In this document: in pieces, positions 48,006 to 51,087 of the stretch
Layout of the letters: each line of letters starts with the position of its first letter
Position numbering within the stretch: position 1 is the first letter of the stretch
From: Sulfoacidibacillus thermotolerans
GTDB taxonomy: Bacteria > Bacillota > Bacilli > Alicyclobacillales > SLC66
NCBI RefSeq assembly: GCF_003144315.1
Contig: NZ_MPDK01000006.1
Span: forward strand, 62,001-126,000
DNA length: 64,000 nucleotides
Direction of reading: 5' to 3'
Notes under the pieces: model-generated
Told to the model about the DNA's origin: nothing
The model's input: the letters and a program-made list of their open reading frames with translations, nothing else
Database searches by the model: none
Position numbers and translations under genes: made by a program

Positions 48006-48188
48006 TTATTGCATCCGTACTACCTTCGCTTTAATCACAAAGCCCAAAGCAGCTAGAACACAGCCTATTCCGACCACCAATAACCCATAGGTCATTTGTG
48101 TTCCCATCAAAATAGCTCCCCCTGCAAGAACGGCCATAACGAATAAAGAGAAGATGAAAAAACCAATTTTAGCACGCTTATTCAACAT
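48006..48188 (-). CDS. Small membrane protein (DUF5325/YlaF-like)
   Basis: A 60-residue protein with two hydrophobic helices (IGFFIFSLFVMAVLAGGAIL and GLLVVGIGCVLAALGFVIKA) and a basic start and end. GGAGTGATAA precedes the ATG, which overlaps the end of the FadR-type regulator gene by 11 bp, indicating coupling. The size and pattern resemble YlaF-type proteins of Bacilli, whose role is unknown; assignment tentative. Confidence 0.65.
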   Translation of the reverse strand: MLNKRAKIGFFIFSLFVMAVLAGGAILMGTQMTYGLLVVGIGCVLAALGFVIKAKVVRMQ

Positions 48189-48924
48189 TTATCACTCCAT
48201 CGGATTCGATTTGATGTGCGATCGGAACTTGGCGCAATTGTGCCACGCGATCCTGCAACGTTCGTCGATACAATTCGATCTGGCGCGCTGCCGCCTCGGC
48301 ATCCATATTTAAAATACTTCCATAGAGTGCACGATGCATTCCGATCATGAGATCATGCAACTGAATTTCTTTCCCTAGAAGAAGCAATACACTCGATAGC
48401 GGATGGTATAAGATACGTAACAAATTGCTGGCCATCGCATTTCCGCTCGCATCGACCATGCCCATGTGAAACATGCGTTCTCCTTCAACAACCAATTCAG
48501 GATTCCCGCGTCCAGACTCCATATAGAAGAGTGCCTCTGCTAAGTATGAACAGTCGTTTTCCGATCTGCGCTGCGCTGCAGAGGCGGCAATCCCTTGTTC
48601 TAACCACAGCCCTACCTCAAGCAACGCACGCAAATCAGACTGTCCTAACAGTAACGCCGCGTGTACTGGGCGCAAAACCGTATCAAGAGTAAGCATCTTT
48701 ACATAAGTGCCATCCCCATGACGCAACTCAAGAACCCCAGCGCCAACCATCAAACTGCAGGCTTCGCGTATTACCGCTTTTGACACGCCAAAACGCGTGG
48801 CGAGATGGGAAAGCGGAGGTAGTTTTTGCCCCGATGTCCATTCGCCACGCATAATCGCCGCCTCAAGCTGTTCCGCCACTTCGCGATACAGCACTTTCCC
48901 CGTCAGTTCTTTGTTTTTACTCAT
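48178..48924 (-). CDS. FadR-type GntR transcriptional regulator
   Basis: A 248-residue GntR regulator: N-terminal winged helix (YREVAEQLEAAIMRGEWTSG, then LATRFGVSKAVIREACSLM and HGDGTYV) and an FCD-type helical effector domain with acidic/histidine residues that may bind metal and an organic acid (FHMGMVDASGNAMASNLLRI). The target is unknown: neighbours are a Bax-inhibitor-like gene 7 bp upstream and a small membrane gene downstream. Confidence 0.9.
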   Translation of the reverse strand: MSKNKELTGKVLYREVAEQLEAAIMRGEWTSGQKLPPLSHLATRFGVSKAVIREACSLMVGAGVLELRHGDGTYVKMLTLDTVLRPVHAALLLGQSDLRALLEVGLWLEQGIAASAAQRRSENDCSYLAEALFYMESGRGNPELVVEGERMFHMGMVDASGNAMASNLLRILYHPLSSVLLLLGKEIQLHDLMIGMHRALYGSILNMDAEAAARQIELYRRTLQDRVAQLRQVPIAHQIESDGVINVE

Positions 48925-48931
48925 TCGAGCT

Positions 48932-49582
48932 CTAGTCTCTGCTTGAACGAGCGTTTAGCCCGAATAAGCGCAAGATGAAGAGGAATAGATTCACAAAATC
49001 CAAATACAACTGAAGTACAACAAGTGGGACTTGATCAACCGTGACCCCATAACGAGTCAGCCTGTTTACGTCAAAGAGCATGTAGCCGACGAAAACAGCA
49101 ATTCCTAGATAGGTATAGCCAAAAGAAAAGCCCGTAGAAAATGGCACAAAAATATTTACCAAGGAAAGGCCTACAAGAACCAAAATCCCTGCAAACAAAA
49201 ACTGTCCAAGCCAACTAAAATCCATCGATTTGCGCGATGCCACAAATGCTGTGACGCCAAACGTAGCCGCAGTGATTAAGAAAGCTTCTTGAACAATCCG
49301 CACACCGAGCATTTGCGTATAAGCAAAAAGCACTGGCGTTAATGTCATTCCTGAAATAAATGTAAAAGCGAGGACAAACCCCCATCCTGCCACTTGCCTC
49401 CGCCTAACCATAGACGCCGCAAACAGCATCACAAACTCAATGATGACAAGCGGCATAAAAAAGCCGGCAGGTACAAACTGACCAACGTAAGTTCCGACGC
49501 TGGCAGACAACAATGTGGCAAACAAACCAAGTAAAACACGGCTCTTTACAAACCGAGCCTCAACATTCGGATACCCATACAT
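48932..49582 (-). CDS. Bax inhibitor-1/YccA family membrane protein
   Basis: A 216-residue protein with seven hydrophobic helices of the BI-1 (TMBIM/YetJ) family, which act as pH-sensitive calcium leak channels in membranes (known for B. subtilis YetJ). The C-terminal YDVNRLTRYG-type motif is present as FDVNRLTRYG, and TM7 contains LQLYLDFVNLFLFILRLFG. AGGAGGGAAGCAACT precedes the ATG. A good promoter with a palindrome at its -35 box is located upstream (49624-49652). It is followed by the FadR-type gene. Confidence 0.9.
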   Translation of the reverse strand: MYGYPNVEARFVKSRVLLGLFATLLSASVGTYVGQFVPAGFFMPLVIIEFVMLFAASMVRRRQVAGWGFVLAFTFISGMTLTPVLFAYTQMLGVRIVQEAFLITAATFGVTAFVASRKSMDFSWLGQFLFAGILVLVGLSLVNIFVPFSTGFSFGYTYLGIAVFVGYMLFDVNRLTRYGVTVDQVPLVVLQLYLDFVNLFLFILRLFGLNARSSRD

Positions 49583-49682: not shown

Positions 49683-49988
49683 TTAACAACCACTGTCTCC
49701 AATGCCTTGACTGTAAATGGAGAAGCTGTCCTCATACTCATCATATTCAACAATCAAAGGTTCTTGCGCAAGAGATGCCGTAAATGGATCAAGAATAACG
49801 GGCACGCCGTGGACTTCAATGACTACATCTCGTTCCGATCGCTCATCCAGAGCCATCATAAAACGCACCCCGCCTCAGCCAGGAGCAGCAGAGATACGAA
49901 TGTCATACGATTCGGCGTTTTCTTCACGGCGTATTTCGAGGATTCGCTGGGCCACCTTTTCATCCATGATGACTTTCGCTTCTAACAT
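49683..49988 (-). CDS. HesB-like protein with in-frame TGA (candidate selenoprotein)
   Basis: A 101-residue HesB/IscA-like protein if TGA codon 38 (49875-49877) is read as selenocysteine: the context is ISAAPG-U-GGVRFMMALDE, where relatives carry cysteine in G-C-GG-x-R-F. The frame continues to a normal C-terminus (GIGDSGC). HesB-like selenoproteins are a described bacterial family. A hairpin suitable as SECIS lies 18-38 bases after the TGA with GG in its loop. ATG 49988 starts 4 bases after the mutY stop, with GGCGGTGA ahead, so the genes are coupled. The alternative is a nonsense mutation. No selA/B/C/D gene is in the window to support decoding. Confidence 0.72.
49837..49857 (-). promoter_or_regulatory. 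Candidate bacterial SECIS hairpin
   Basis: In the mRNA GAU/AUC and GCUC/GAGC stems (separated by one G-G mismatch) close a five-base loop UGGAU. The loop GG is 27-28 nucleotides after the UGA, within the 16-37 range typical for SelB-bound bacterial SECIS elements. Hand-folded only. Confidence 0.55.
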
Positions 49989-49992
49989 GTTG

Positions 49993-51087
49993 TCACCGCC
50001 TTTCTGACATTCCCTCTACTTTTACATCCATCCACATTTTATTAAATACCTGTCCAAATGTATATCGCTCTCGTTGTTCTGCGCTGACCCACTGATAAGG
50101 CGCCTCGAGTACTAACCCCTCAGTTGCTTTGAACACATATAGTGATAAATTCCAGATGACATGAGAAAATAGGTGTACATATTTACGTATAAAAGTGATT
50201 TCTTGGGGTACATATCCGACAATCTCCCGAGCCAACATTCCGATCTGGCGCAAATCGCTCGCATCTACTTCTAAAGCAACGGCACTTGACATGAGCACAT
50301 GGGGAAATTCCCACAAATTAGCCAATAGCCCTTGTTGCGGACGCTTCCTTATCAAGAATTCACCACTTTGACTTTCAATCAGAAAGACTGCGCGTTCCTC
50401 TATACGCTGTGGTTTTTTACCTTTCTTATAGGGCAGTTCATTTTGTCGACCCGTCGCTCGCGCTTTACAGTATATTGTAAGAGGACACTCTACACACTTG
50501 GGTGTACGTGGAACACATATCCTTGCGCCTAGCTCCATGAGCGCTTGATTAAAGTCGCCTGGACAATCACGAGGGATGAGTTCAGTCACGATCGCCTCTA
50601 CACGTGTTCTTGTACGTGCACTCGCCACATCCTCTTCAAGTGCGAAGACGCGCGCCATCACACGCAAAACATTGCCATCGACTGCCGGAAGAGGAACCCC
50701 ATAGGCAATCGAGAGCACAGCTCCTACAGTATACGGCCCTACTCCTGGAAGTGCGCGCATCTGCTCATAACTGCGCGGTATTTCCCCTCCATACTTGGAG
50801 GCGACTTCCTTTACAGCCAAGTGTAGATTGCGTACGCGTGAGTAATAACCAAGTCCCTCCCAATTCTTGACCACTTCTTGTTCATCTGCTGCAGCAAGCG
50901 CATCAATTGAGGGATAACGCGTTATAAATCGCTCAAAATATGGTACTACCGTCTCCACTCGTGTTTGTTGCAACATCACTTCTGACACCCAGATTGCATA
51001 CGGGTCTTTGCTTCTGCGCCAAGGCAAATCCCGCTGAACCGTGCGATACCATTGGACTAACGCCGATGCGAACTCTTGCTTTGCCAT
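49993..51087 (-). CDS. mutY: A/G-specific adenine glycosylase MutY
   Basis: A 364-residue glycosylase that removes adenine mispaired with 8-oxoguanine. N-terminal domain: LPWRRSKDPYAIWVSEVMLQ with the catalytic glutamate, the helix-hairpin-helix LPGVGPYTVGAVLSIA, the aspartate in PAVDGNVLRVMAR and the [4Fe-4S] cysteines (C-6-C-2-C-5-C) in CVPRTPKCVECPLTIYC. The C-terminal NUDIX-like domain recognises 8-oxoguanine (FLIRKRPQQGLLANLWEFP). It is coupled to the HesB-like gene 4 bp downstream. Confidence 0.95.
   Translation of the reverse strand: MAKQEFASALVQWYRTVQRDLPWRRSKDPYAIWVSEVMLQQTRVETVVPYFERFITRYPSIDALAAADEQEVVKNWEGLGYYSRVRNLHLAVKEVASKYGGEIPRSYEQMRALPGVGPYTVGAVLSIAYGVPLPAVDGNVLRVMARVFALEEDVASARTRTRVEAIVTELIPRDCPGDFNQALMELGARICVPRTPKCVECPLTIYCKARATGRQNELPYKKGKKPQRIEERAVFLIESQSGEFLIRKRPQQGLLANLWEFPHVLMSSAVALEVDASDLRQIGMLAREIVGYVPQEITFIRKYVHLFSHVIWNLSLYVFKATEGLVLEAPYQWVSAEQRERYTFGQVFNKMWMDVKVEGMSERR

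Follow-up and report, generated by a model that had tools for sequence, protein, structure and literature searches.

In the A-type carrier IscA, the ligands are three cysteines, Cys35, Cys99 and Cys101. HesB-like selenoproteins have been described from bacteria (PMC1794560), a point also made in the initial annotation of the locus treated here, and a UxGP motif has been given for them (PMC13188914). The only member to have been tested in the laboratory, the HesB-like selenoprotein of Methanococcus maripaludis, was found by mutagenesis and 75Se labelling and is without clear function (PMC11097638).

We analyzed a stretch of 64,000 nucleotides from Sulfoacidibacillus thermotolerans (contig NZ_MPDK01000006.1, positions 62,001 to 126,000; hereafter the window), which contains a hesB-like gene with an in-frame TGA. 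The predicted product would be of the same kind as the M. maripaludis protein, which is archaeal and is likened to it here by description. With the proteins described by the TIGR01911 and NF038090 models it shares a small HesB domain, a putative selenocysteine (Sec) at the first conserved Cys position, a predicted SECIS element directly 3' and, as in most members, a single C-terminal Cys or a short Cys tail. By contrast, the clade to which it belongs lies far under the cut-offs of both models, shows UGG[VMI]R where UxGP would be expected, forms a long branch and is linked to mutY. Compared with IscA, SufA and ErpA (PF01521, TIGR00049), the predicted fold and two of the three ligand positions are the same, whereas Sec would replace Cys, the CGC tail is cut to one terminal Cys, and a canonical copy (CGCGSSF) is encoded elsewhere in the genome.

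Results

The gene (Fe-S_biosyn, A-type carrier-like) lies on the minus strand, a detail absent from the initial annotation, at 49683..49988 of the window: its frame runs from an ATG at 49988 to a TAA ending at 49683 and comprises 101 codons plus the stop codon. With the TGA taken as a residue, the translation is MLEAKVIMDEKVAQRILEIRREENAESYDIRISAAPG-U-GGVRFMMALDERSERD...GIGDSGC (101 residues). The initial annotation had described a HesB-like frame broken by one TGA at the expected Cys codon, continuing for 63 codons and liable to be truncated by standard annotation, and on each point it proved accurate. The single TGA in the frame is codon 38 (49877-49875, minus strand), in the motif AAPG-U-GGVRF; exactly 63 codons follow it; and standard ORF calling yields nothing but a 61-aa tail with a GTG start (49868..49683). 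The codon of the conserved C-terminal Cys101 is at 49686..49688 on the same strand.

None of the curated family models that we tested reaches its cut-off with the hesB protein: as a single sequence, it scores 26.0 against 26.3 for PF01521, and it obtains 26.7 against 66.35 bits for TIGR01911 (HesB_rel_seleno) and 29.3 against 85 for NF038090 (IscA_HesB_Se). Since, in addition, the UGA breaks the frame, annotation pipelines are expected to miss or truncate the gene. The motif that begins at the TGA reads UGGV in hesB and UGG[VMI] in the host-family clade rather than UxGP, while UGGP is found in a second family of the order and in most Sec forms of the phylum. In the tree, the host-family clade stands on a separate long branch (support 98/92). 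The scores under the cut-offs, the UGG[VMI]R motif and the supported branch together indicate that the hesB genes of the host family are, as judged from their sequences, a divergent branch of the already known HesB-like selenoproteins; a divergent, family-wide branch is thus added to this group in Bacillota.

Bacterial SECIS (bSECIS) elements have been modeled with a loop of 3-9 nt, a G in the first two loop positions, a UGA-loop spacing of 16-37 nt, an upper stem of 4-16 bp and a minimum free energy of at most -7.5 kcal/mol (PMC13188914). The candidate bSECIS hairpin of hesB (49837..49857, minus strand) falls within all these limits. Its stem, GAUgGCUC / GAGCgAUC, contains one G.G mismatch and an unbroken upper part of 4 bp; the apical loop UGGAU (49849-49845) starts 25 nt after the UGA; and the predicted energy is -15.7 kcal/mol. 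The hairpin GCUC-UGGAU-GAGC, with its GG 27-28 nt past the UGA, is therefore present as initially claimed.

The same hairpin recurs in the 37 Sec-type genes collected across the phylum, with a loop UGGA[UCA] at a constant 25 nt past the UGA. Codon usage in the stem-loop is fixed: an Ala, Thr or Val codon of the form NNT in 37/37 genes (background 20%), Leu CTG in 37/37 (29%) and Glu GAG in 36/37 (39%), the sole gene with GAA (L067) having a matching U on the opposite side. RNAalifold recovers the hairpin unaided. In the 37-gene alignment, 91.9% of the cells are paired, and 35 cells keep their pairing with both sides changed; none of 500 shuffles matched the observed paired fraction, number of both-sides-changed cells or covariation score, and slid controls were 25-45% paired. 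The pair 24-38 is seen as G-C, C-G, U-A and A-U, and the pair 25-37 as G-C, A-U and G-U. In the host genus, 24-38 is a G.G mismatch with further pairs on each flank, so that the host hairpin is less well formed than the hairpins of its relatives. Note that the inner stem never varies among the 15 members of the host family, so that covariation controls are not decisive there; they became so once Sec-type genes from the whole phylum were included.

The host assembly that contains the window (2.87 Mb, 99.86% complete) encodes the machinery for Sec insertion. The initial annotation had pointed to selA, selB, selC (tRNA-Sec) and selD as the genes whose absence would speak against a selenoprotein, and all of them are present: one tRNA-Sec gene (65 bits against a gathering score of 47; anticodon TCA according to ARAGORN), selA (501 bits), selB (634 aa, 368 bits) and two selD genes (397 and 336 bits). 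The objection that the genome lacks sel genes therefore fails. A gene for tRNA 2-selenouridine synthase is also found. At least four further host genes have a TGA at a catalytic Cys site: both selD genes, each with one in-frame TGA within the matched stretch (SGUGCK and AGUAAK), and two peroxiredoxin genes, in which the TGA takes the peroxidatic position (TPGUT, STIUPT). Molybdopterin-family genes of the host (formate dehydrogenase type) were checked as well and are without in-frame TGA.

Some features of these loci are recorded here as side observations. The two selD genes (L020 and L021, at G000:C24 and G000:C59) are different from one another, and each carries TGA in place of the catalytic Cys; selD is doubled in the same way in at least five further host-family genomes. 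The canonical Cys HesB gene (CGCGSSF; L001/L090, G000:C48:387858-388744) is directly downstream of the peroxiredoxin gene with TGA at TPGU, so that the second HesB of this genome is likewise tied to a selenoprotein. The other peroxiredoxin gene (FSTIUPTEL) is L094, at G000:C70:133995-134384. A TPP riboswitch (L003:332-228) lies about 1.2 kb from the tRNA-Sec gene.

Among 59 genomes of the order, close homologues of hesB were found in 19 (15 of the host family and 4 of the second family), with one internal TGA each. The TGA falls in the same alignment column in 19/19 translated homologues, which also have an invariant Cys at or adjoining the C-terminus; across the phylum, TGA occupies the Cys position in 37/37 Sec-type genes. 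A Cys form of the mutY-linked hesB clade was not found in the 59 genomes. The selA gene is present in 19/19 genomes with a TGA-containing hesB and in 10/40 other genomes of the order (Fisher p = 1.4e-8, the genomes being related and not independent). Purifying selection acts past the UGA: of six species pairs, five give dN/dS values of about 0.05-0.16 there, and the sixth and closest (G053/G054) has too few changes for an estimate. Across the 14 SECIS codons, dS is lowered in the three same-genus pairs. A scan of genome contigs with hesB returned one relative, from a congener; when 398 genomes of the phylum were searched with a profile, many more TGA-containing HesB homologues from varied families appeared, and HesB proteins of this kind are widespread in Bacillota. 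Since the TGA, the C-terminal Cys and the hairpin occur together in essentially every Sec-type homologue examined, the pattern is well beyond chance.

These results bear on readings in which no Sec is inserted. The truncated product given by standard gene calling is what one would obtain if the TGA were a nonsense mutation or a sequencing error, the gene being in decay or wrongly assembled. However, the same TGA is present in 15/15 host-family homologues, taken from separate assemblies, and in the four of the second family, purifying selection persists beyond it, and the host genome decodes Sec; its conservation across genera rules this explanation out, and we give it practically no weight. 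The GTG start just past the TGA could alternatively mean that the UGA is a true stop, separating a 37-residue peptide from a 61-residue tail, or plain readthrough could insert another amino acid. Yet the stop is constantly UGA at the Cys position (37/37 genes), it is followed by a SelB-type hairpin at a fixed spacing, every genome of the order with a TGA-containing hesB has selA, and the predicted fold spans the UGA, all of which makes a stop or unspecific readthrough very improbable. The sel genes, the Cys/Sec alignment, the occurrence of the TGA across genera and the covarying hairpin support the selenoprotein reading put forward in the initial annotation, and hesB of S. thermotolerans almost certainly encodes, on this sequence evidence, a genuine HesB/IscA-type selenoprotein.

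The AlphaFold2 model of the protein (pLDDT 89) has IscA (1r94) as its best match in the PDB (E 3.9e-5, TM 0.74), and the family profile matches the structures of HI1723, AQ_1857, IscA and SufA (E down to 1.4e-22, for HI1723). The initial annotation had called for an alignment at the TGA position, and this places Sec38 on the first conserved Cys of canonical HesB/IscA proteins, both the host's own HesB (L001) and HI1723. Sec38 aligns with Cys35 of IscA, and Cys101 with the first Cys of the CGC tail (IscA Cys99), although residues 99-101 have a pLDDT below 50 and the placement of Cys101 is poorly modeled. Two of the three Cys ligand positions are thus kept (Sec38 and Cys101); the third has been lost here, which is also the case for most aligned Sec-type homologues.

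The gene directly upstream of hesB, on the same strand, is mutY (49993..51087, minus strand), which encodes an A/G-specific adenine glycosylase with an intact [4Fe-4S] motif, C-X6-C-X2-C-X5-C. The coupling of hesB to mutY noted initially holds as a genome arrangement: the gap to the hesB ATG is 4 nt in the window, and in 14/15 host-family genomes mutY precedes hesB on the same strand, overlapping it or at a distance of at most about 140 nt (in the 15th, the contig begins just ahead of hesB). The MutY cluster motif is intact in 13/13 readable host-family copies, the 14th copy being truncated. The coupling does not hold beyond the host family: no mutY was found beside the Sec-HesB genes of the second family or of the phylum, and linkage to mutY was accordingly rejected as a general rule for Sec-HesB. 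The link to MutY is thus suggestive, and limited to the clade. Downstream of hesB are genes for a membrane protein with weak similarity to YccA, an FtsH modulator (48932..49582, minus strand), and for a GntR-family regulator (48178..48924, minus strand) that is conserved near the mutY-hesB pair in the host family. As judged by eye from ORF starts, the upstream neighbor of Sec-HesB in other lineages is a fumarate hydratase alpha-like gene (divergent; L041, L052 and L054) or selB (L059, L061 and L074); the fumarate-hydratase-like neighbor is that of the second family.

Discussion

The sequence features suggest how the protein would be made and what it might do. SelB and Sec-tRNA(Sec) would bind the hairpin just past UGA-38, which would be decoded as Sec without a stop, to give a protein of 101 residues. 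According to the model, this would adopt an A-type carrier fold with Sec38 in the place of IscA Cys35 and Cys101 in that of Cys99. Iron or an Fe-S cluster could then be held between two protomers by two Sec and two Cys ligands, an arrangement to which we give roughly an even chance of being correct.

The fold and the ligand positions point to an A-type carrier of Fe-S or metal as the probable role of the protein. It might instead have a redox role, involving a Sec38-Cys101 selenenylsulfide, or bind heavy metals or metalloids rather than carry Fe-S. Such a role would be compatible with the retention of two of the three canonical ligands and with the lack of a Cys form of the clade in the order, and a 2026 review describes homology to thiol oxidoreductases, or the presence of redox motifs, for many uncharacterized selenoproteins (PMC13188914). 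On the other hand, cluster-binding IscA has the same fold, with ligands at both of the retained positions, and the neighbor in the host family is an Fe-S enzyme, MutY, whose cluster ligands are intact. We therefore view a redox or metal-binding role as a real but lesser possibility, and an A-type Fe-S or metal carrier as somewhat more likely.

Because of the tight linkage to mutY, the carrier may, speculatively, take part in the maturation of Fe-S proteins, MutY among them. That the Sec protein of this clade has delivery or repair of the MutY cluster as its dedicated function seems unlikely; if it did, the accuracy of oxidative-damage repair in these bacteria would depend on selenium supply. 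A putative Sec-containing A-type protein fixed beside an Fe-S repair enzyme offers a natural system in which the reason for selenium use by HesB-like proteins can be addressed.

Among the canonical Cys homologues examined, the SECIS element is absent, with one relic. The relic is in L082 (G061), a HesB that belongs to the Sec type but has Cys (CSGP): GCTCTGGATGAT is what is left of the SECIS loop, and the same genome has a TGA-containing copy elsewhere. It is possible that L082 reflects a recent change from Sec to Cys following a duplication.
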